From assembly GCF_019236475.1 (NCBI RefSeq), contig NZ_JAFAIX010000012.1, positions 1-64,000 on the forward strand: a stretch of DNA of 64,000 bases, read 5' to 3'. This document shows, piece after piece, positions 3,725 to 60,082 of the stretch; the stretch's first letter is position 1, and each line of letters starts with the position of its first letter. The translations under genes were made by a program, and so were the position numbers. The DNA is from Chitinophaga sp. GTDB lineage: Bacteria; Bacteroidota; Bacteroidia; Chitinophagales; Chitinophagaceae. The notes beneath the pieces were generated by a model. The model worked only from the letters and a program-made list of their open reading frames with translations. It did not search any database and was not told where the DNA came from.

Positions 3725-6271
3725 ATGAACGAACACCTGAAGCTGTCCTTATTCGGGCTGCTGCTAAGCGGAGCTGCCTGTCTGGGCACCGTAAACCCGA
3801 CCTTTGCCCAGTCCACCACCTTAACCCCGCAAGATTCTGCCCTAAAAATCTATCGCGCCGCTGCCACCAAAATCAACGACCTGGTACATACCAAACTGGA
3901 TGTACACTTTGATTACGGGAAACGTTACCTCTATGGTAAAGCATGGATTACCCTGAAACCACATTTCTACCACACCGACTCCCTGACCCTCGATGCCAAA
4001 GGCATGGATATTAAGGAAGTGGCGATCGAAGTAAACGGCAAGAATGTTCCCCTGAAATACCGGTACGACAACATGCAGTTGTTTATCGAACTAAATAAAA
4101 CTTATACCCCCAACGATAAATACACTGTCTTTATCAGCTATACCGCCAAACCGAATGAGGTGAAAGTAAAAGGCAGTGCAGCGATTTCTGATGCAAAAGG
4201 CTTGTACTTCATCAATCCAGATGGTACAGAACCGAATAAGCCTACGCAGATCTGGACACAAGGAGAAACAGAAAGCTCCTCTGTATGGTTCCCTACTATC
4301 GATAAAACCAACCAGAAAACTACCGAGGAAATCAGCATGACGGTAGAGAAAAAATATGTGACCCTCTCTAATGGTAAACTCGTTAGCCAGAAACACAATG
4401 CGGATGGCACCCGTACAGATACCTGGAAAATGGATCTCCCGCACGCACCTTATCTGTTTATGATGGCTGTAGGCGACTACGCTATCGTGAAAGATTCCTG
4501 GAAAGGTAAGGAGGTGAATTACTACCTGGAGAAACCATATGAAAAATATGCGAAAGCCATTTTCGGTAATACTCCGGAAATGCTCACTTTCTATTCCAAT
4601 ATCCTGGGTTATGAATATCCATGGGTGAAATATTCCCAGATCACTGCCCGTGACTATGTTTCCGGTGCCATGGAAAACACGACCGCTACCTTGCACGGTG
4701 AGTTCATGCAGAAAACAGACCGGGAGCTACTTGATAACAATAACAAAAACGAAACCGTTATCGCCCACGAACTCTTTCACCATTGGTTCGGCGATCTCGC
4801 TACCGCTAAATCCTGGAGTAACCTGACTGTAAATGAATCATTCGCAGATTACAGTGAATATCTCTGGCTGGAACACAAATACGGTAAAGATGCGGCTGAT
4901 GAGCACTTACTGGACAACGCCAATCAATATATGCAAATGGCGCAGTACAGCGGTGATAAAGATCTCGTAAGATTCCATTATGCCGATAAAGAAGATATGT
5001 TCGACCAGATTACTTACCAAAAAGGCGGCTGCATTCTCCATATGCTTCGCAATGCAGTAGGTGATTCTGCCTTCTTCAAATCGCTCAATCATTACCTGAA
5101 AACAAATGCTTTCAAAGCTACGGAAGCACATCAGTTGCGCCTGGCCTTTGAAGAAGTAACGGGAAGAGATATGAACTGGTTCTTCAACCAATGGTATTTC
5201 GGTCAGGGTATACCACAACTGGACATCAGCTATAAATATGCTCCTGGAAAAGTAACTGTATTGCTGCAACAGATTCAAAAAGGTGATAAAACCTGGCAGT
5301 TACCAATGGCGATTGATGTTTATGTCAATGGCAATAAAACACGTCACAACGTGTTCATGCAGAACAAAATTGATTCATTCACCTTCCAAGTGGCCGCTAA
5401 ACCAGATCTCGTAAACGTAGATGCGGAAAAAGTAATACTTGCGAAGAAAGATGATCACAGAGACTTCAGTACCTATGCTTATCAATATGCCCATGCTCCT
5501 TTGTACATGGACAGACGCTATGCTATTGAAGCAGCACTGGACGCACAAACCACCAATCCGGATGCGTTGAAAGTCCTGCAAGCAGCCCTGAATGATAAGT
5601 TTGCTGGCCTTCGTCAACTGACTGCTGATAGGCTGAAAGTAGGCAATGAATCCGTAAGAAACGCTACCATTGCGGGCCTGGTAAAAATGGCCAAAGAAGA
5701 TAAAAACGCGCTCGCCAAAGCCGCTGCCATCAGAAAACTGGGTACACTGAAAGACAAACAGTATATCCCTATTTTTGAAGCTGCCACTAAAGACCTGTCT
5801 TATGGCGTAGAAGGCGCAGCTCTGGAAGCGTTGGCCGAGTTGGATATCGACAAAGCTTATACGATCGCCAAATCGCTTCAGCAGGATGCTAAAGGCGGGC
5901 TGGTGAATAGTATCACCCAGATTTATGCGAAAAAAGGAAATGAAGCTGATTTGAATTTCGTTGCCAATAAATTCGACGAAACAACTGGGCAGGATAAACT
6001 GAATGCCGCATTTGAATATCTCGGATTCCTGGCCAATATCAACAATACGCCTGCTGTTATTAAAGGTGTAGACCAGATTCAAGCCATGACGGTTGTGTTT
6101 AAAAATGCCATGGTAAACAGATATATCTCCAACTGGATGGAGCAGATTGCTACTAACAAGAATGAAGCCGGAAAGAAAGCTTCTGGAACGCAGCAGCAAG
6201 ACCTCCTCAAACAGGCCGAGTACCTAAACCAGAAGGCTAAAGAGATCAAGAATGGTGCAACCACTGACTAA
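3725..6271 (+). CDS. M1 family zinc aminopeptidase, exported
   Basis: Removes N-terminal amino acids from peptides. The exopeptidase motif GAMEN is at residues 314-318. The zinc site HELFHH at 348-353 has its third ligand E371 18 residues on (NESF), the exact M1 spacing. An N-terminal signal peptide (hydrophobic FGLLLSGAACLG, then TFAQS) implies export to the periplasm or outer surface. After the catalytic domain the C-terminal third (about 590-848) is helical and HEAT-like, as in other large bacterial M1 enzymes. At 848 residues the length is normal. Monocistronic: it is flanked by oppositely oriented genes and ends at a strong hairpin. Confidence 0.95.
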   Translation: MNEHLKLSLFGLLLSGAACLGTVNPTFAQSTTLTPQDSALKIYRAAATKINDLVHTKLDVHFDYGKRYLYGKAWITLKPHFYHTDSLTLDAKGMDIKEVAIEVNGKNVPLKYRYDNMQLFIELNKTYTPNDKYTVFISYTAKPNEVKVKGSAAISDAKGLYFINPDGTEPNKPTQIWTQGETESSSVWFPTIDKTNQKTTEEISMTVEKKYVTLSNGKLVSQKHNADGTRTDTWKMDLPHAPYLFMMAVGDYAIVKDSWKGKEVNYYLEKPYEKYAKAIFGNTPEMLTFYSNILGYEYPWVKYSQITARDYVSGAMENTTATLHGEFMQKTDRELLDNNNKNETVIAHELFHHWFGDLATAKSWSNLTVNESFADYSEYLWLEHKYGKDAADEHLLDNANQYMQMAQYSGDKDLVRFHYADKEDMFDQITYQKGGCILHMLRNAVGDSAFFKSLNHYLKTNAFKATEAHQLRLAFEEVTGRDMNWFFNQWYFGQGIPQLDISYKYAPGKVTVLLQQIQKGDKTWQLPMAIDVYVNGNKTRHNVFMQNKIDSFTFQVAAKPDLVNVDAEKVILAKKDDHRDFSTYAYQYAHAPLYMDRRYAIEAALDAQTTNPDALKVLQAALNDKFAGLRQLTADRLKVGNESVRNATIAGLVKMAKEDKNALAKAAAIRKLGTLKDKQYIPIFEAATKDLSYGVEGAALEALAELDIDKAYTIAKSLQQDAKGGLVNSITQIYAKKGNEADLNFVANKFDETTGQDKLNAAFEYLGFLANINNTPAVIKGVDQIQAMTVVFKNAMVNRYISNWMEQIATNKNEAGKKASGTQQQDLLKQAEYLNQKAKEIKNGATTD

Positions 6272-6305
6272 TTCTTGTTTGCTATACAAGTAAAAGGCTA
6301 TATCA

Positions 6306-6358
6306 AAAAATAAGAAAGGGAAATGACGTCTGCGATGTCATTTCCCTTTCTTATTTTT
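6306..6358. terminator. bidirectional terminator between convergent genes
   Basis: Perfect 22-bp stem (6306-6327 with 6337-6358) with a 9-base loop. A-rich and T-rich flanks give a U tract on both strands. It lies between the M1 aminopeptidase stop (6271) and the DUF1835 gene stop (6373). Confidence 0.9.
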
Positions 6359-6372
6359 TCCTTTGAGCAAAT

Positions 6373-7290
6373 TTAATCGATCGCTACTAACCGCTGTAAT
6401 GTCTTGCTCCAACGCCATGGACTGGTTTTGAGACGAACGCCCCCTATCCAGCGATGTTCCATGGATGCGTAATCCAGGTAATTTTCTTCATTGGCCAATA
6501 TCTCTGAGCCGAGGGAAGTAATACGTAGCATTTGATCCTCTTGTTCCAGCACGCCTGCTTTAATCATTCGATTCACCATAATATCTAGCTGGAAATCTCC
6601 GAAACCATAGATGGGCATAGAATCCCAGAATAATTTATACAGATCATACCAACGGTAGTTACCCAATTCCAGCCGTTGTAGGAAGAATTCCTGGATAATA
6701 CTCAACCCGTTGTTAATATCTGGGAATCTGGGAAGTTGTGCTGCGATAGCGGTATTGAGATGGGTGAGACGACCGGTATTGAATTTGGCAAATAACTCCA
6801 ATGCTTGAGGCGTGTCCAGGCAATAAGCGTCCCAGGCGTCGTCAGCGATTTCGAGGTCGCCGGGAGTGAGTTGGACACGGGAATCCAGCAGTTGATTGAA
6901 GGTATTGGCTTCAGTATGTTTAGGAAGATCTACTAGAGAAATGAGGGGCAGGTCTTTAAACCGTTGCCGGATGAGGTGAATGATGAAGATGAGGTTAAAT
7001 TGGCAGAATACATCATAGTCGAACCAGAGGATGATTTCAGCAGGAAAGGAACTGGAGGGTTTTAATTTCTCCAGTTCCTTCACTACTTGTGTATAATAAG
7101 ATTTTTGATCTATTCCGTAATGGAATTCGAGGTGTTTGGCCCTGCTTGTAAAGAACAGTTCAGGGTCTTTGGTATTTTTGGCTTTGCCTTCGCAGATGAA
7201 TTCCCTGCATACAACAGGTTCGCCGGGCACTTCACTTTGCCTGAAAGCGGTAAGGGAAGCATCTCCATTCAGCACATGCAGGTATGACAT
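6373..7290 (-). CDS. DUF1835 domain-containing protein
   Basis: Function not established. The N-terminus (LHVLNGDASLTAF, then VVCREFICEGK) matches the DUF1835 pattern of an LHxxNGDS-like start followed by WRExLxxG. The rest is about 305 residues with an acidic IILWFDYDVFCQFNL core, and it ends with a winged-helix-like segment. The ATG at 7290 is chosen because the upstream extension is an artefact: it reads the complement of the neighbouring glycine-rich repeat and is almost entirely Arg/Trp. The start lies 26 bases after the stop of the TPM-domain gene at 7317, so it may be the last gene of the lemA transcript. Confidence 0.75.
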   Translation of the reverse strand: MSYLHVLNGDASLTAFRQSEVPGEPVVCREFICEGKAKNTKDPELFFTSRAKHLEFHYGIDQKSYYTQVVKELEKLKPSSSFPAEIILWFDYDVFCQFNLIFIIHLIRQRFKDLPLISLVDLPKHTEANTFNQLLDSRVQLTPGDLEIADDAWDAYCLDTPQALELFAKFNTGRLTHLNTAIAAQLPRFPDINNGLSIIQEFFLQRLELGNYRWYDLYKLFWDSMPIYGFGDFQLDIMVNRMIKAGVLEQEDQMLRITSLGSEILANEENYLDYASMEHRWIGGVRLKTSPWRWSKTLQRLVAID

Positions 7291-7316
7291 AAATAATTCT
7301 GATTTTTTTAAGTAGA

Positions 7317-8096
7317 CTACCAGCTTCCGCTTGCACCACCGCCACCGCCGGAACCGCCTCCGAATCCGCCGAAGCCACCGCCTCCGCCACCACCGGACCA
7401 ACCTCCGCCGCCACCGCCGCCGAAGCCGCCCATACCACCGATCACAGGCCATATCCAGCCTCCTCTGCGATTATAGGTTGTTCCAGAGCCGCCACCGCCG
7501 CCACCTCCACCTCTGGTGAAGAGAGAGATAACGATAACGATCATAATGATGATGATAAACAGTACACCGGGGCTGATTCCTGGTTGACTTTTCCTAGGAT
7601 CGGCTTTGTATTCCCCCGCCATAGCTTTGATAACGCTGGAAGTAGCATCGTCTAAGCCCTGATAGTAATGGCCTTCCCGGAATGCCGGTTGGATATCATT
7701 CCTGATAATCTGGTTTGCTAATGCATCAGGAAGAGGGCCTTCTGCTCCATATCCAGTTTCTATCCTGATCTTTCTGTCATTAACAGCAACAAGAATCAGG
7801 ACTCCATTGTTCTTTCCTTTTGACCCAATTCCCCAGTCTCTCAGTATTTTCAGGGAAACCTGGCTGATATCATAATCGCCTACTGATTTGATGATAACGA
7901 CAGCGATTTGAGTGGAGGTACTGTCGTTATAAGCGACGAGTTTACGTTCCAATGCTTCGTCTTCATCTTTCAGCAATACGCCAGCAAAGTCATTTACCAG
8001 TGTGGGAGGATTAGGCCTTGGCGGGATATTCTGTGCCTTTGCCAGCAATCCCGTCAGTAGAAACAGTATCGGTAAAAACCAACGTAATATCCTCAT
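7317..8096 (-). CDS. TPM domain protein with glycine-rich tail (YgcG-like)
   Basis: Membrane-associated TPM-domain protein; the family is linked in other species to photosystem repair or acid phosphatase activity, but no role is known here. Residues 1-21 are a signal peptide. Residues ~30-160 are the TPM domain (LVNDFAGVLL start, QIAVVIIKSVGDYDI, then NGVLILVAVNDRKIRIETGYG). One transmembrane helix (VLFIIIIMIVIVISLF) follows near residue 185, then a tail almost wholly of Gly with some Ser/Trp (FGGGGGGGWSGG). This order equals E. coli YgcG. It lies in the order lemA, TPM, TPM, a frequent LemA/TPM association. Confidence 0.88.
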   Translation of the reverse strand: MRILRWFLPILFLLTGLLAKAQNIPPRPNPPTLVNDFAGVLLKDEDEALERKLVAYNDSTSTQIAVVIIKSVGDYDISQVSLKILRDWGIGSKGKNNGVLILVAVNDRKIRIETGYGAEGPLPDALANQIIRNDIQPAFREGHYYQGLDDATSSVIKAMAGEYKADPRKSQPGISPGVLFIIIIMIVIVISLFTRGGGGGGGGSGTTYNRRGGWIWPVIGGMGGFGGGGGGGWSGGGGGGGFGGFGGGSGGGGGASGSW

Positions 8097-53103: not shown

Positions 53104-53841
53104 CTAAGCCATAGCAGCATGGAATCTTTTCTCCACTTCATTCCAGTTAATCACATTCCAGAAGGCATTGATATAATCTGGACGTTTGTTCTGGTATTTC
53201 AGGTAGTAAGCGTGTTCCCATACATCCAAGGCCAGGATGGGCGCACCTACTTCTTTCACGAGGTTCGTCATCAGTGGATTATCCTGGTTAGGTGTATTGA
53301 GGATCGCCAGTTTTTTACCTGGTGTAACAATTAGCCACGCCCAACCTGAACCGAATACTGTTTTCGCAGCATCATTGAATTTCTGTTGGAAGGCATCCCA
53401 AGAACCGAAATTAGCTGTGATGGCTGCTTTCAATTTCTCTGAAGGAGTTGTTTTGGTAGGGCTGAGCAGGGTCCAGAAGAGAGAGTGATTATAATGGCCT
53501 CCAGCATTATTACGTATAGCCTTTTCAGTGGGAGCAGCGGTTACTTTTTTCAGTATCTGCTCCAGGGTCAGGGACGCAAATGGTGTATTGGGGAGGGCAT
53601 CGTTCAAATTCTTCACATAAGCACCATGGTGCTTGTCGTGATGGATTTCCATGGTCATTTTGTCGATATTAGGCTCCAGTGCATCATAGCCGAAAGGCAG
53701 AGGAGGTAATACAAAAGGTGCTTTGGGATCGGCAAAATTGGTTTTCACGGTAGCTGACGATGCAGCCAGGCTTGCAAGCGGTCCACTTAAAACAGCGGCC
53801 CCGGCAAGGCCGGTAAGCTTGATAAATTCTCTTTTGTTCAT
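53104..53841 (-). CDS. Fe/Mn superoxide dismutase with Tat-like signal
   Basis: Converts superoxide to oxygen and hydrogen peroxide. The N-terminal [18 protein letters not shown] is a Tat-type signal (KR in place of RR), so export as a folded metalloprotein is plausible. The mature part has the Fe/Mn-SOD pattern [25 protein letters not shown] (first metal histidine and neighbours), [10 protein letters not shown] and [13 protein letters not shown] with the last metal Asp/His. 245 residues. The start at 53841 is chosen over an in-frame ATG 24 codons upstream. Its own promoter includes TAGATTTG (53878-53885). Confidence 0.92.
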
Positions 53842-53877
53842 ATGAAAAGATTGAATTTGTTTGTGACTGAGCAGATA

Positions 53878-53885
53878 CAAATCTA
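53878..53885 (-). promoter_or_regulatory. -7 box of the superoxide dismutase promoter
   Basis: TAGATTTG matches TAnnTTTG; a TTTG further upstream lies at 27 rather than 19 bases, so the -33 half is weak, which is compatible with activator control. Confidence 0.45.
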
Positions 53886-54345
53886 CTTGATAGCAGGTTA
53901 AATATTTTATCAAATTTTACACCAGATCATTACAATTTTAAAATCGTTAAAATATTTAAGCGGTCCTATCCTATTGAGAACCAGGGCTCCAGGTGAAATA
54001 ACCCCTCGCTTTCGGGAAAAATACGGGTTGACTTTATGGATAATTCTGGAAATAATACTATTTTACCATTACCTTCATGTGAAGATGATTTTTTTTAATT
54101 TTTTTCAAATAATGATACTATTTATCCCAGGTGCTGCTAACTGCGGAGATAGAAATGTCACCCTTGCTACTATGGCCAACGAAAAAATTATTAAGCATAC
54201 CCAATGCTTGGATTTGTACCGTTGTTAGTAAGACCGTATCAAAGTTGAAAACAGAAATATGAAAACTATTCCGGTATCGTTCATTTAGCAGTAGAACTAA
54301 TCCGGCTTTTTCGGGTTATAATAAATAATAAAGCATCCCAGATCA
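53886..54345. other. intergenic region, no gene seen
   Basis: About 460 bases, A/T-rich in its middle (54030-54120). The open frames crossing it have no recognisable features. A TTTG at 54213-54216 is not followed by a good -7 box, so I could not place the promoter of the operon starting at 54346 with confidence. Confidence 0.4.
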
Positions 54346-55071
54346 ATGCTTAAGGTTAGAGTATTCAAGGCGATAGAGTATCCTGAAGAGTGCCTGCAGT
54401 ACATTGCAGGGCACAGGAAGGTGCTGGAAGCATATGGTGTAACCAAGGTGACTTCTGCGAACGTTGACTGGATGTACGAGCCTTTTACTTACATTATAAC
54501 CGTTAGTAATGATGACTATACGAAAATGTATGGTGGGTGCAGAATTCAGTTGGCTGGAGGAAGCGTTCCACTCCCGATTGAATCCGCCATCAATACGATG
54601 GATCCAAGAATATTTGATATTGTAAAAAATTTAGCAGCCAGTGGAGGCACCGGTGAGTTCTGTGGGTTATGGAACTCTAGAGAGGTGGCCGGCTGGGGAA
54701 TTGGTAGTATTGTGCTTTTTCGTGTAGTGAATGCCGTATTAAATCAGTTGCCAGTAACTACGTTTCTTGGTTTCTGTGCACAAACTACTTTCCGCAACAG
54801 TATCCGTACCGGATACCAGATTATGACTAATATCGGCAACCAGGGCACCTTCTATTACCCCAAAGAAGACCTCATCGCCACCGCTCTCATTCTGCATGAC
54901 CCACTGGAACTGAAAAGTGCACATCCAGAAGATCGGGAAAGAATGATGAGTTTGCGTAATAACCCTGTACAGACAATGATCGAGAAAGGCCCCAAAGGCG
55001 AAATGCAGGTGGACTACGATTTGCGAATCATGTCTGCAGCCACCAGCGATTTGCCGATGGTAAAACAGTAA
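54346..55071 (+). CDS. GNAT-like (N-acyltransferase-type) protein
   Basis: Probable acyl-CoA-using enzyme; I recognise a GNAT-like pattern but not a named family. The middle part (about 95-165) has the layout of a GNAT core, with GTGEFCGLWNSREVAGWGIG followed by a helix and FLGFCAQTTFRNSIRTGYQI, resembling N-acyl amino acid synthase (FeeM-like) proteins and distantly acyl-homoserine lactone synthases. 241 residues, no membrane segment. First gene of a five-gene run: the next gene, an E1/ThiF-like enzyme, starts 7 bases after it, so the two products probably act together. Confidence 0.55.
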   Translation: MLKVRVFKAIEYPEECLQYIAGHRKVLEAYGVTKVTSANVDWMYEPFTYIITVSNDDYTKMYGGCRIQLAGGSVPLPIESAINTMDPRIFDIVKNLAASGGTGEFCGLWNSREVAGWGIGSIVLFRVVNAVLNQLPVTTFLGFCAQTTFRNSIRTGYQIMTNIGNQGTFYYPKEDLIATALILHDPLELKSAHPEDRERMMSLRNNPVQTMIEKGPKGEMQVDYDLRIMSAATSDLPMVKQ

Positions 55072-55078
55072 TAAAATC

Positions 55079-56197
55079 ATGAGCACAACTTTAGCACAGG
55101 CTTTAACAGCAGGCTGCCGGAGACGAAACGACAGACAGGTAGAATTTTTTCGCTTACAAGACCCCAACCAGTCGGCCGGACTGGCATCTCTCTTAAAACA
55201 ACATCCTGAAATACAGGTATTTGATGAATTACCGGCGCAACTTGCCGAACTGATCAAACTTCGACATCCAACAGAACGATTGACAGATGCAGACATCCAA
55301 ACTAAAGTAACGGACCATTTGGGAAATACTCCTTCCGAAAATTATGGGGTATGGGTATATTATCCTTGGGCTGCCAGATTAGTACATATTTTGGATGAGG
55401 TTGAGTTCATTGAATTACGCACTAGCCGTAACCTACAGAAGATTACTCTTGCTGAACGGGAATTACTCCGTCAGAAAAAAATAGGCGTAATTGGGTTGTC
55501 TGTAGGGCAGTCGGTGGCACTAACCTTAGCGATTGAACGACTTTGTGGGGAATTGCGCATAGCGGATTTCGACAGATTGGATCTAAGTAATATGAACCGC
55601 ATCCGGACAGGCGTCCACAATGTGGGGATTTTGAAAACCGTTATTGTAGCGCGGGAAATTGCGGAAATTGATCCATTTTTGCGTGTAATCTGCTTCGATG
55701 AGGGCATCACCGATGATAATATAGACCAATTCTTGACGGAAGGTGGAAAACTGGACATACTGGTAGAGGAATGCGATGGCCTGGATATCAAGATACTGGC
55801 TCGTCAGCACGCACGAGCACTCCAGATACCGGTATTAATGGACACCAGCGACAGAGGTATGGTAGATGTAGAAAGATTTGATCTACATCCCGATTTACCT
55901 ATCTTGCATGGAAGAGTACCAGTAACGCTTACCCCTGCAGATGTGAGAACCATGCAGGGACCAGCAAGAATGGCACTTGTAGATAGTATTGTCAATTTCA
56001 GCGCGTTATCGGCCAAAATGCAACTTTCCCTCCAGGAAATAGGTAAGACTATTACTACCTGGCCTCAGCTCGCATCTGCGGTTATGCTGGGAGGTGCGGC
56101 GATTGGACATGTGTGTCGGGAATTATGTTTGGGTGGCCATATTGAATCAGGCAGATACTACGTAGACCTGGAACAAATTTTCAAACCAACAAAGTGA
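55079..56197 (+). CDS. E1/ThiF-like adenylyltransferase (Rv1355c-like, no nitroreductase domain)
   Basis: A 110-residue N-terminal region precedes a Rossmann ThiF/UBA-type domain. The nucleotide loop is IGVIGLSVGQSVA, the acidic ADFDRLDLSNMNRI (D163, D165) equals the DxDxVxxSNLNRQ signature of E1 enzymes, and a cysteine lies at VEECDGLD. Zinc CxxC pairs are absent. Related Rv1355c proteins carry a nitroreductase domain after ThiF; here the chain ends at residue 372, soon after the E1 core. It may adenylate the carboxyl end of a small molecule or peptide. Only 7 bases after the GNAT-like gene and 14 before the kinase. Confidence 0.75.
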   Translation: MSTTLAQALTAGCRRRNDRQVEFFRLQDPNQSAGLASLLKQHPEIQVFDELPAQLAELIKLRHPTERLTDADIQTKVTDHLGNTPSENYGVWVYYPWAARLVHILDEVEFIELRTSRNLQKITLAERELLRQKKIGVIGLSVGQSVALTLAIERLCGELRIADFDRLDLSNMNRIRTGVHNVGILKTVIVAREIAEIDPFLRVICFDEGITDDNIDQFLTEGGKLDILVEECDGLDIKILARQHARALQIPVLMDTSDRGMVDVERFDLHPDLPILHGRVPVTLTPADVRTMQGPARMALVDSIVNFSALSAKMQLSLQEIGKTITTWPQLASAVMLGGAAIGHVCRELCLGGHIESGRYYVDLEQIFKPTK

Positions 56198-56211
56198 CCT
56201 CTATTTAAACA

Positions 56212-58383
56212 ATGCAACACCTGATCCAACCGGTACATAAGAAAATCGTATATCTGTTACTGTTAGTAACATTTTTTCATTTACCAGCTTGGGCAGATAC
56301 TATCACTATTTCAAATCATTCTCCCATGCAACTGGCCGAATACGGCCAGTTGGAATATTTTCTGGACCCCACTGGTAAGGCCGACTTCAAAGAAATCCTT
56401 CACCAGGGCAACTTCCAGAAACTGCAAAAACAGATTCCTAACTTCGGCCTTACAAAAGATGCCATCTGGCTTCGATTTACCGTCGCCAATAAAACCGGGG
56501 AAAATGGGCTGCTCTTTAATGTCACCTACCCTATCCTCGACCTGATTGATCTTTATTACCCTGATGAAAAAGGATATTTCCAGATGATTCCAGGCGGAGA
56601 GCTACGCCCATGGGAAAAAAGACCTGTCTCGCATCAAAACTTCGTTTACAACATCAGGATACCTAACGGGACCGCACAAACGTTCTATTTCCGGATTCAG
56701 AGCAGGGAAGCGATATTAGTACCTATTTACATTGGAACACCCCGCGAAATTTATAACAAACTGTACAATGATGATCTGCTGCTTTCTATTTACATCGGCA
56801 TCATCCTAGTCATGATCTTCTATAATACCTTCATCTTCTTCTCAGTAAAGGACTGGAGTTACTTCTATTATATCATATACATCGCATTTGTAGGATTGGC
56901 GCAGATATGTCTCCATGGCTTCGGCTATCGTTTCTTCTGGCACGATAACATGTTCATTACAGAACAGAGCGTCTTATGGGCAGGGGCATTGTCTGGCATT
57001 TCGGTATTGGTGTTTGTGCAAAACTTCCTCCACGTAAAGGAGAAAGCGCCTTGGGCGTATCGGATATTTACCTTGTTTATCGTGGTATATTCCAGCACCT
57101 TAGTACTCAGCCTGCTGGGCTATTTCTCCATAGCTTATGCATTGATAGATTTTCTGGCGATTACCGGAGTAAGCTTCATCTTACTGTTTGCCGTATCACA
57201 AGCATTCCGACATTCCAAGCCAGCCAGAATTTTTGTACTGGCATGGACGATTTTCATCATAGCTGTTATCGTCTTTGTATTGAAAGATGTAGGCATCATC
57301 CCGTATAATATCTTTACCAGCCATATTCTGGTAATCGGATCGGGTATGGAAGTCGTACTGCTGTCCTTTGCGCTGGCAGATAAGATCAATACCTTCAAGG
57401 CCGAAAAAGAAGCCTCTCAGGCATTGGCGCTGCAGATATCCAAAGAGAACGAGCAACTGGTAAGGGAACAGAATATTATCTTGGAAGCCAAAGTGCAGGA
57501 AAGAACAGAAGAATTACAGAACAGTAACAAGGATCTGAATATAGCGTTGACCGATCTGAAAGATGCACAGACCCGCCTGGTGGAAAAGGAGAAAATGGCT
57601 TCTTTGGGTCAACTGACAGCGGGTATTGCACATGAAATCAACAACCCGATCAACTTTGTTACTTCCAATATCAAGCCCTTAAAGCTGGATATAGCAGACC
57701 TTCGAACCGTGCTCAATAAATATGAAGCCCTGGCGGAAGCGCCAGATATGAAAGGGGAACTGGCTAATATTGAACAATTCAAGCAGGAAATTGATATAGA
57801 TTATATACACGAAGAAATTTCTTCCCTCATCAAAGGCATTGAAGATGGCGCCGCCAGAACTGCTGAAATTGTGAAAGGGTTACGCACATTCAGTCGCCTG
57901 GATGAGAGCGATGTGAAATCGATCGATATCCATGAAGGATTGGATTCTACATTGGTGCTGTTGAGAAATGGTATACCACCTAACGTGAATATTATCAAGC
58001 ATTATTCAGAGTTGCCGAAAATTGAATGCTATGCAGGCAAGGTCAACCAGGTATTTATGAATATCCTGAGCAATTCTCTGAATGCGATCAAGAGCAAGAA
58101 GGAACAACATAATGAATCAATTACCATTTCAACCAGAAGAGAAGATCCATACGTTGTAATTACTATCCATGATACCGGCATCGGAATGACTGCCGAAGTA
58201 AAAGAAAAAATATTTGACCCGTTTTTTACTACAAAGGATGTGGGAGAAGGTACCGGTCTGGGACTTTCAATAGTCTTCAGCATCATTGAAAAACATCGGG
58301 GTAAAATTATTGTTAATTCAGCACCGGGAGAGGGTGCAGAATTTATTATATATTTACCTCTGGACCTTTCCAGTCACCTGTAG
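56212..58383 (+). CDS. 7TMR-DISM sensor histidine kinase
   Basis: Signal peptide to about residue 28, then a periplasmic 7TMR-DISM extracellular domain 2 (about 35-180; DAIWLRFTVANKTGENGLLF). Seven transmembrane helices follow (about 185-395), then a coiled coil and a HisKA domain with H474 in LTAGIAHEINNPINFV. The HATPase has HDTGIGMTAEVKEKIFDPFFTTK and GTGLGLSIV. 723 residues. The periplasmic fold binds small ligands, often carbohydrates, in this family. In an operon with two possible biosynthetic enzymes upstream and two receiver proteins downstream. Confidence 0.92.
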   Translation: MQHLIQPVHKKIVYLLLLVTFFHLPAWADTITISNHSPMQLAEYGQLEYFLDPTGKADFKEILHQGNFQKLQKQIPNFGLTKDAIWLRFTVANKTGENGLLFNVTYPILDLIDLYYPDEKGYFQMIPGGELRPWEKRPVSHQNFVYNIRIPNGTAQTFYFRIQSREAILVPIYIGTPREIYNKLYNDDLLLSIYIGIILVMIFYNTFIFFSVKDWSYFYYIIYIAFVGLAQICLHGFGYRFFWHDNMFITEQSVLWAGALSGISVLVFVQNFLHVKEKAPWAYRIFTLFIVVYSSTLVLSLLGYFSIAYALIDFLAITGVSFILLFAVSQAFRHSKPARIFVLAWTIFIIAVIVFVLKDVGIIPYNIFTSHILVIGSGMEVVLLSFALADKINTFKAEKEASQALALQISKENEQLVREQNIILEAKVQERTEELQNSNKDLNIALTDLKDAQTRLVEKEKMASLGQLTAGIAHEINNPINFVTSNIKPLKLDIADLRTVLNKYEALAEAPDMKGELANIEQFKQEIDIDYIHEEISSLIKGIEDGAARTAEIVKGLRTFSRLDESDVKSIDIHEGLDSTLVLLRNGIPPNVNIIKHYSELPKIECYAGKVNQVFMNILSNSLNAIKSKKEQHNESITISTRREDPYVVITIHDTGIGMTAEVKEKIFDPFFTTKDVGEGTGLGLSIVFSIIEKHRGKIIVNSAPGEGAEFIIYLPLDLSSHL

Positions 58384-58405
58384 TATTTAACCATAACTAC
58401 CATTG

Positions 58406-59503
58406 ATGAAAGAGAACCGCATAAGAATACTTTACATTGATGATGAAATCCATAACTTGAATGCCTTTAAGGCGAGTTTCAGAAGGAGTTATGAGATTTA
58501 CACCGCCACCTCTGCACAGGAAGGAAAGCAGCTCCTGAAGGAAATAATGGTGCATATCATTATTGCAGACCAAAAGATGCCCGTTTCCACCGGGGTAGAA
58601 TTCTTCAATGAAATCAAGGATGTGCTCCCTGATCCGATTCGTATTCTCCTGACTGGTTATACTGATGTGGATGATATCATTGATGCCATCAACAAAGGCC
58701 ATATCTTTTCTTACATTAAGAAACCTTGGGATGAGCATGAGCTGCATAGAACCATCAATAACGCCTACGAAATATATTCCACTCGCCGTCAGTTGAAAGA
58801 GAAGATTGCTGAACTGGAAAAAACCAATGATGAACTAAATAGGTTCATTTATTCCACGTCTCACGACCTTCGTTCTCCGTTAATGTCTGTGTTGGGCATT
58901 ATCAACCTCTCTCGGCTGGATAACAGTGTAGTAGATCCTAACGGCTATATGAACATGGTGGAAAGCTGTGTGCTGAAGCTAGATGGGTTTATTCAAAAGA
59001 TCATTGAATACTACCGAAATTCCAGACTGGAGATTGAATATGAAAAGATAGATTTCAACAACCTGTTGAACGATTGCATTACCGTATTCCAGCCACAGAA
59101 CACGGATATTCGTTTCCAGACGCTGGTAGACCAGGAATTGGAGTTCCGGGGAGATACTTTCCGTATCAGTGTTATCCTGAACAATCTGATTTCCAATGCT
59201 GTTAAATATCAAAAACCGGACGAAAGCAATCCTATGGTACATTTGTCCGTGAAAGTAGAGCCCCATAAAGCGACTATTTGTATACGTGACAACGGTATCG
59301 GCATATTAAGCGAGCATTTGAATAATATCTTCAAGATGTTCTTCCGTTCGAAGAATAATAATAAACCAGGAAGCGGTATTGGCCTTTATATTGTAAAGGA
59401 AGCACTGAATAAAATCGGCGGCACAATCAACGTCGAATCCAAATATGGTGAAGGCACTCAATTTGAAATAACTATTCCTAACAGAAATGAATTCGATACC
59501 TGA
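58406..59503 (+). CDS. response regulator-histidine kinase hybrid (REC-HisKA-HATPase)
   Basis: Receiver domain (1-120) with D55 in IIADQKMP, then a short coiled coil, HisKA with H153 in STSHDLRSPLMSV and HATPase (DNGIGILSEHLNNIFKMFFRS, GSGIGLYIVKEAL). It is soluble: no membrane helix, 365 residues. The layout suits a phosphorelay step that receives phosphate from the 7TMR-DISM kinase (22 bases upstream) and passes it to the response regulator. ATG at 58406 preferred; a TTG one codon earlier exists. Its receiver is a close paralogue of the protein at 9637. Confidence 0.9.
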   Translation: MKENRIRILYIDDEIHNLNAFKASFRRSYEIYTATSAQEGKQLLKEIMVHIIIADQKMPVSTGVEFFNEIKDVLPDPIRILLTGYTDVDDIIDAINKGHIFSYIKKPWDEHELHRTINNAYEIYSTRRQLKEKIAELEKTNDELNRFIYSTSHDLRSPLMSVLGIINLSRLDNSVVDPNGYMNMVESCVLKLDGFIQKIIEYYRNSRLEIEYEKIDFNNLLNDCITVFQPQNTDIRFQTLVDQELEFRGDTFRISVILNNLISNAVKYQKPDESNPMVHLSVKVEPHKATICIRDNGIGILSEHLNNIFKMFFRSKNNNKPGSGIGLYIVKEALNKIGGTINVESKYGEGTQFEITIPNRNEFDT

Positions 59504-59906
59504 TCTGAGAGTCATATTAATCGATGATAATGAAATAGACCTGATGCTGCATGAAAAATTAATCACCTTTCAGCAGATCAGCAGGACTGTATTGTCATTT
59601 CTGAATCCCAACAAGGCGCTGGAATTCCTTTCCAGTAATATTTCCCTGCCACGTATCCCTCCGACTGTCATACTGCTTGATATCCAGATGCCAGAGATGG
59701 ACGGCTTTGAATTTCTGCAGGCATTTGATAGCTATCCGCAGAAGATTAAATCACAGTGTCATATCATCATGGTATCGTCTACACTGGATTATGGGGATAT
59801 TACGCGTACAAATGCCAATCCACTAGTAGTAAAATTACTCCGTAAACCTTTACTGCTAAAGGAATTGAGAGAAACCGTAGAGGGAATTTTTAAAGATTTT
59901 GTCTAA
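59487..59906 (+). CDS. single-domain response regulator
   Basis: 139-residue CheY-like receiver: acidic pair in LIDDNEID, phosphorylation site D65 (LLDIQMPEMDG) and the conserved lysine in LRKPL. No output domain, so it probably acts by protein binding or as a phosphate carrier. The start overlaps the upstream kinase gene by 17 bases, which indicates translational coupling and that the two partners belong together. This is the last gene of the operon; a tRNA-Ala promoter begins 5 bases after its stop. Confidence 0.9.
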   Translation: MNSIPDLRVILIDDNEIDLMLHEKLITFQQISRTVLSFLNPNKALEFLSSNISLPRIPPTVILLDIQMPEMDGFEFLQAFDSYPQKIKSQCHIIMVSSTLDYGDITRTNANPLVVKLLRKPLLLKELRETVEGIFKDFV

Positions 59907-59940: not shown

Positions 59941-59972
59941 CATCCCGCAAGGGAATAAAGATTTCCTGCAAT

Positions 59973-60045
59973 GGGGGATTAGCTCATCTGGTAGAGCGCA
60001 AGCATGGCATGTTTGAGGTGAGCGGTTCGAGCCCGCTATCCTCCA
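59973..60045 (+). tRNA. tRNA-Ala (GGC)
   Basis: 73-base cloverleaf: acceptor GGGGGAT/ATCCTCC, D arm GCTC/GAGC, anticodon stem CAAGC/GTTTG around loop ATGGCAT (anticodon GGC), T arm AGCGG-TTCGAGC-CCGCT. CCA is not encoded (CCC follows the discriminator A). Confidence 0.95.
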
Positions 60046-60054
60046 CCCAATAAG

Positions 60055-60082
60055 AGGTCCGGACAATCCGGACCTTTTTTAT
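60055..60082 (+). terminator. Rho-independent terminator of tRNA-Ala
   Basis: Stem AGGTCCGGA / TCCGGACCT with loop CAA (60055-60063 with 60067-60075) followed by six Ts. Confidence 0.9.

Follow-up and report, generated by a model that had tools for sequence, protein, structure and literature searches.

In Vibrio, LuxM-LuxN pairs an acyl-signal synthase with a membrane receptor kinase, LuxM not being of the GNAT-like LuxI type, and the first report of oxazolones is said to have come from de Rond et al. in 2021. The oxazolone pathways OxzAB (Pseudoalteromonas rubra), TyzACB and TrzAS (Mycobacterium tuberculosis and relatives) have in common an N-acyltransferase of the FeeM/acyl-homoserine-lactone (AHL) synthase fold encoded beside a ThiF cyclase. 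Excerpts of PMC12856293 describe the physiological role of oxazolones as a major unresolved question, note only their likeness to signal molecules, and report that cyclic di-GMP genes adjoin trzAS, raising a signalling role. We analysed a stretch of 64,000 nucleotides from Chitinophaga sp. (contig NZ_JAFAIX010000012.1, positions 1 to 64,000; hereafter the window), in which a five-gene operon at 54346..59906 places a putative acyltransferase of predicted FeeM/AHL-synthase fold directly beside a ThiF-type cyclase, followed by a 7TMR-DISM sensor kinase, a REC-histidine kinase and a single receiver. Across Bacteroidota, the synthase and this class of sensor are near-obligately linked, and the sensors form a distinct group. 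We propose, with a probability of roughly 0.6, a signal-synthesis-and-reception cassette whose product, sensed by the cassette itself, is an N-acyl amino acid that in the window is probably cyclised to an oxazolone.

The cassette resembles LuxM-LuxN in that a predicted acyl-signal synthase is encoded beside a membrane histidine kinase feeding a phosphorelay, and differs from it in the synthase fold, the 7TMR-DISM sensor and the exchangeable tailoring enzymes. Compared with the oxazolone pathways, the fused nitroreductase-type oxidase is common to many relatives of the window set (65 of 132 places) but not to the window, and in Bacteroidota a 7TMR-DISM kinase and receivers go with the set; the word "kinase" occurs 0 times in the main texts of PMC12856293, PMC10404671 and PMC12479983. 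With the FeeM and NasY systems (stieleriacines, thalassotalic and kyonggic acids) it shares the synthase fold and the ThiF, nitroreductase and methyltransferase partners (excerpts of PMC12479983), but no kinase is mentioned in those excerpts. Relative to RetS-type 7TMR-DISM kinases, the cassette sensors stand apart as a group of their own that is coupled to a synthase gene, with the receiver on separate proteins. No description of a coupling between such a synthase and 7TMR-DISM kinases was found among the open-access papers searched (titles and opening abstracts, with the broadest queries sampled in part).

Coupling of the synthase to one group of sensor kinases

The operon contains the following features (window coordinates):

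54346..55071, + strand: gene 1, predicted GNAT-like N-acyl amino acid synthase (P0001), 241 aa
55079..56197, + strand: gene 2, predicted stand-alone ThiF-type cyclase (P0002), cyclase half of the TrzS/Rv1355c family, 372 aa
56212..58383, + strand: gene 3, 7TMR-DISM sensor histidine kinase (Pfam), 723 aa
56347..56733, + strand: periplasmic 7TMR-DISMED2 sensor domain, gene 3 residues 46-174 (PF07696, 2.5e-36)
56773..57384, + strand: 7TMR-DISM seven-helix membrane domain, gene 3 residues 188-391 (PF07695, 3.8e-45)
58406..59503, + strand: gene 4, REC-histidine kinase (Pfam), 365 aa counted from ATG
59487..59906, + strand: gene 5, single-domain receiver (Pfam), 139 aa, with a 17-base overlap with gene 4

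To quantify the linkage, relatives of the synthase were collected from 60 of 195 genomes of the family (35 of 101 genera), 76 of 395 genomes of the class (44 of 197 genera) and 13 of 395 genomes of a phylum sample, one of these belonging to another class. The family set comprised 58 places (57 fetched, plus the window), leaving out genomes G033 and G107, whose synthase matches are contig-edge fragments with sensors adjoining them. The class/phylum set comprised 74 places, from 73 of the 76 class genomes (the other 3 being already in the family set) and G299 of the phylum sample, and a named-loci set, overlapping the others in part, consisted of the best 80 of at least 564 confirmed loci. Linkage counts were made by six-frame search, which also showed kinases to be present in L232 and L235 and a synthase in L177, L189, L234, L236 and L237. 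The sensor lay beside the synthase on the same strand in 58/58 family places, 72/74 class/phylum places and 79/80 named loci, that is, in 130 of the 132 family and class/phylum places, window included. Among the three misses, L164 and L200 are contig ends and L240 is real. In the open reading frame calls, synthase and kinase genes were directly adjacent in 144 of 212 loci, 67 of these having no gap. A REC-kinase like that of the window followed downstream in 54/58, 69/74 and 75/80 places of the three sets, respectively, and REC-PAS-HisKA_3 kinases were seen in L190, L193, L194, L218 and L241. A receiver resembling that of L035 (154 residues) was encoded on the opposite strand within the stretch in 47/58, 62/74 and 61/80 places, often divergent from the operon; none adjoins the operon of the window.

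A sensor profile was then built from 49 linked sensor domains and run on the same 195 family genomes, where it matched in 94 at 1e-10. Matches of at least 335 bits were confined to 59 genomes, every one a synthase genome, and in the sixtieth synthase genome (G105) the sensor is a fragment cut by the contig end. Genomes lacking the synthase never exceeded 275 bits, and the two top unlinked sensor proteins (316 and 291 bits) both came from synthase genomes. The profile was trained on linked sensors themselves; linked sensors outside its training rows (e.g., that of G117, 335 bits) nevertheless outscored all unlinked ones, contig-cut fragments excepted. Identical sets of 60 among 195 genomes would arise by chance with a probability of ~10^-51 if genomes were independent, which relatives are not. 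In the tree, 46 linked sensors were separated from 21 unlinked 7TMR-DISM proteins by a branch with a Shimodaira-Hasegawa-like approximate likelihood ratio test (SH-aLRT) support of 97, and in 20 stretches around unlinked sensors no synthase-like open reading frame adjoined the sensor.

The synthase and the receptor kinase are thus encoded and inherited together. Chance neighbourhood was ruled out by the 130/132 adjacency, the matching genome sets and the separate sensor group, the more so because the genome of the window has only two 7TMR-DISM_7TM matches, of which gene 3 scores better. The initial annotation had tied the GNAT-like and E1-like pair to the kinases, an idea that would fail if the enzymes were scattered away from kinases in relatives or the kinases usually adjoined unrelated genes. 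The synthase proved not to be scattered in this way (one real exception in 132 places), and no sensor of the class located away from a synthase scored above 316 bits in the 195 family genomes. Enzymes and kinases do form one unit, but the GNAT-E1 pair is not its core: many linked loci lack ThiF, for which reason the pair was rejected as the unit, and the conserved core is the GNAT-like enzyme with the 7TMR-DISM kinase, accompanied by the REC-kinase and often by a receiver.

In the window operon itself, coordinates and spacings were re-read and agree with the initial annotation (five genes in one direction, gaps of 7, 14 and 22 bases and one 17-base overlap); gene 4 has an alternative in-frame TTG at 58403. 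Gene 3 joins a DISM extracellular domain, a 7TM domain and a kinase (7TMR-DISMED2, 7TMR-DISM_7TM and HATPase_c, the last at 5.8e-24), gene 4 carries Response_reg and HATPase_c, and gene 5 carries Response_reg, matching the domain types originally proposed for the last three genes; HisKA fell under Pfam's cut-off in both kinases. The Pfam scan of the five proteins also returned no DNA-binding output domain and no exporter domain, as had been noted. H474 of gene 3 is conserved in 194/195 aligned kinases, H153 of gene 4 in 156/157 and its D55 in 137/157 (the other 20 being gaps), and D65 and K120 of gene 5 in 94/94. The seven-helix part of the sensor model (56773-57384) appears similar to GPCR-like bundles and Wntless; since bundle scores of this size may reflect only a common arrangement, we place no weight on this likeness.

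Several further layouts were observed among the cassettes. L040 and L188 contain a tandem pair of synthase-like genes within one cassette. L103 (a metagenome bin named "Azovibrio restrictus") has the same cassette layout and gene sizes as L104 (a Bacteroidetes bin), and is probably mis-binned. LuxR-type regulators close the cassette in L190, L193 and L216 and lie on the opposite strand in L194.

The enzymes and the exchangeable tailoring slot

Gene 1 had no Pfam or NCBIfam match, and neither P0001 nor profile A3 gave a convincing match in PDB sequence searches; the protein is 99% identical to one encoded in C. dinghuensis. Its AlphaFold2 model (mean pLDDT 90.3) had as top structural matches, heading the Foldseek list, the N-acyl amino acid synthase FeeM and AHL synthases, which places the predicted fold in the GNAT-type family of FeeM and AHL synthases. 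The same fold was reported for TyzA in excerpts of PMC10404671. The initial description of gene 1 as GNAT/N-acyl-synthase-like is borne out at the level of the model, whose fold is that of synthases dependent on acyl-coenzyme A (CoA) or acyl carrier protein (ACP); a fold of no cofactor-binding type, which would have counted against it, was not seen.

Gene 2 matched ThiF in Pfam (3.4e-15) and the NCBIfam Rv1355c-family model at 1.6e-135 (453 bits, under the model's 476-bit cut-off), and is the single match to that model at 1e-20 in its own genome. The model covers it over positions 9-340 of 722 only, in line with the earlier statement that it lacks the nitroreductase domain of Rv1355c-like relatives. 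The glycine loop (from residue 139), N171, N173, R174, K186 and D233 are conserved in 163 of 164 aligned sequences, window included, so the predicted ATP site that the initial annotation had proposed to look for appears intact and conserved across relatives, as expected of a ThiF cyclase of the TrzS/OxzB/TyzB type. A flavin-dependent oxidase, fused or adjacent, is absent from P0002 and from the operon; the window set therefore resembles an oxazolone pathway in its working and is not filed as a full one.

Tailoring enzymes were classified over the 132 family and class/phylum places, with domain names taken from representatives and the remaining places assigned by similarity to those. ThiF alone was found at 34 places, ThiF with a nitroreductase-type oxidase (as a fusion or a neighbour) at 65, the oxidase part only at 3, a class I methyltransferase at 10, an ICMT-type methyltransferase at 6, an FAD_binding_4 oxidase at 2, and none of these at 12. 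Among the last, contig ends truncate L033 and L200, while L216 has a Methyltransf_2 enzyme instead. The 80 named loci comprised ThiF 46, ThiF plus oxidase 20, flavin adenine dinucleotide (FAD) oxidase 5, ICMT 5, oxidase only 1 and none 3. The E1-like gene is therefore one option among exchangeable tailoring enzymes: a cyclase, a cyclase-oxidase, three methyltransferase kinds, an FAD oxidase, or none. ThiF-type enzymes lie 5' of the synthase in 90 of 99 places, and in all 18 places that have a methyltransferase or FAD oxidase this enzyme is encoded between the synthase and the kinase, which indicates that gene order changed while the set was kept. In L135 (4022-7042), a single open frame of ~1006 residues spans synthase, ThiF and oxidase, and the sensor kinase comes next; such a fusion speaks for a single pathway. 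N-acyl amino acid pathways are known to use tailoring enzymes of these kinds, the N-acyl tyrosine clusters described in excerpts of PMC12479983 employing ThiF, nitroreductase and methyltransferase partners.

Tailoring type was also mapped onto the trees, requiring 24 changes on the sensor tree (shuffled mean 52.8) and 32 on the synthase tree (shuffled mean 50.6). Eight methyltransferase-type sensors from four host family codes form one group on the sensor tree (SH-aLRT 98), two of the ten methyltransferase places (L193 and L201) being absent from that tree through length filters. This clustering of sensors by tailoring type fits receptors that follow the chemistry of the product.

Proposed signalling and competing explanations

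The coupling is shown by the linkage, the co-occurrence and the distinct sensor group, whereas the chemistry and the sensing are what we infer: the substrates, the product, its export or diffusion, ligand binding, the direction of phosphate flow and the targets. Judging from its fold, the GNAT-like enzyme would acylate an amino acid at its amino group, with acyl-CoA or acyl-ACP as donor of the fatty acyl chain. By homology to TrzS, the ThiF-like enzyme would then activate the carboxylate of this N-acyl amino acid at the expense of ATP and cyclise the molecule to a saturated oxazolone, an acyl compound with a five-membered ring resembling an AHL; since the operon has no oxidase domain, the ring would not be desaturated. 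Relatives would finish the same core by desaturation, methylation or FAD-dependent oxidation, or not at all. The product, or a species derived from it, may bind the DISMED2/7TM part of the co-encoded kinase, and phosphate would pass from this sensor kinase, whose domains and catalytic residues are present, to the REC-kinase and the single receiver and on to targets elsewhere; in some lineages the cassette closes with a LuxR-type DNA-binding regulator. The initial annotation had suggested a self-contained unit making and receiving a small acylated or adenylated signal. Enzymes and kinases stand as one unit, and the expected product narrows to an N-acyl amino acid or its oxazolone, with adenylation predicted at an intermediate stage only.

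Several observations weigh against this proposal. The likeness of P0001 to TyzA, TrzA and OxzA is drawn from the predicted fold, and plain GNAT acetyltransferases equal FeeM in VIA Z, over fewer residues. L240 (G752; 5782-7652) has a ThiF-like gene and a distant synthase relative (2e-4) with no kinase in the stretch fetched. Among the ThiF-family matches that were fetched, L272 (G740) and L273 (G758) are ThiF-oxidase genes with no synthase nearby, the ThiF-oxidase of G758 and a synthase with its sensor (L192) being on separate contigs; L275 (G621) is cut by a contig end, and L276-L278 are partial or weak matches. L274 (G819; 5683-7363) has a ThiF-like start against a kinase-like end and a divergent receiver, with neither synthase nor sensor, and looks like a cassette remnant. 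Host family, too, is clustered on the sensor tree (34 changes against a shuffled mean of 59.3), ICMT-type sensors do not group together there (4 changes), and whole-operon inheritance or transfer could give the same clustering of sensors by tailoring type. The window operon closes with a bare receiver rather than with a DNA-binding regulator within the locus, and it encodes no exporter. Oxazolones are destroyed by acid and alcohols (excerpts of PMC12856293). Saturated ones may hydrolyse in water, and with such lability it may be the open N-acyl amino acid that is sensed.

The converse arrangement, in which the relay controls the enzymes, had been offered as the alternative. In this reading the relay would sense another cue (envelope state, a glycan or stress) and control synthesis of an N-acyl amino acid or oxazolone serving as an end product, such as a surfactant, antibiotic or membrane lipid, and not as a signal; we regard it as unlikely, although it deserves serious weight. 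Regulators commonly adjoin biosynthetic genes, and the DISMED2 domain of gene 3 shares its fold with the periplasmic domain of RetS. According to excerpts of PMC12856293, Stieleria secretes N-acyl tyrosines with antimicrobial activity. The window operon nonetheless encodes no regulator with a DNA-binding domain, the linkage is to a single sensor group, and the sensors of one tailoring type cluster across four host families, as sensors of an unrelated cue would not have to; none of these points is decisive. Given that tailoring enzymes of the kinds searched are missing at some places, the signal could also be the plain N-acyl amino acid, with the tailoring enzyme (here ThiF) modulating, capping or removing it rather than making the active form. 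The 12 of 132 places concerned still keep synthase and sensor, two of them contig ends and one carrying the other methyltransferase, as given above, but a tailoring enzyme is carried at 120 of 132 places and the methyltransferase-type sensors group together, and we consider this version quite improbable.

A role for the GNAT-like and E1-like enzymes in protein modification or conjugation (e.g., of the kinases), or in a defence system, seems more improbable still. P0002 weakly matches E1-E2 defence models (best 1.8e-08) and GNAT protein acetyltransferases occur among the structural matches; against this, the five proteins contain no E2, JAB or ubiquitin-like domain, the best family of P0002 is the oxazolone enzyme family (1.6e-135), FeeM and AHL synthases head the Foldseek list, and the E1-like gene is swapped for methyltransferases and FAD oxidases. 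Defence or ubiquitin-like conjugation was accordingly rejected, its matches being weak and generic and partner domains lacking.

Surroundings of the operon and implications

Upstream of the operon, the translation of a gene at 53104-53913 (- strand) was recognised by eye as superoxide-dismutase-like and has an export-like start, and several other Chitinophaga loci have an open reading frame of 240-245 residues in the same divergent place. Directly downstream lie a tRNA-Ala gene (anticodon GGC, 59972-60049, + strand) and a terminator-like hairpin at 60052-60078. A scan for terminator-like elements also returned a 10-pair palindrome with a T-rich tail at 56329-56352, within the start of the sensor gene. 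A promoter scan gave 20 promoter-like sites against 15.8 expected and was uninformative.

Many Bacteroidota encode an enzyme resembling signal makers beside one kind of receptor kinase, suggesting that they produce and perceive a small fatty signal in a manner not described before. Extended to the phylum, the proposal becomes one of communication by acyl amino acids, with one synthase family and one receptor-kinase group that almost invariably occur as a pair, in which tailoring sets the dialect and the receptors follow; we see the chances of this wider proposal as evenly balanced. With a related enzyme set tied to one receptor group across many Bacteroidota, the question of the role of oxazolones becomes directly testable. 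If the proposal is true, oxazolones and related N-acyl amino acids would gain a signalling role and the phylum its own AHL-like system. Confirmation would thus establish a new acyl-signal system, and with it a natural experiment in the joint diversification of signal and receptor.

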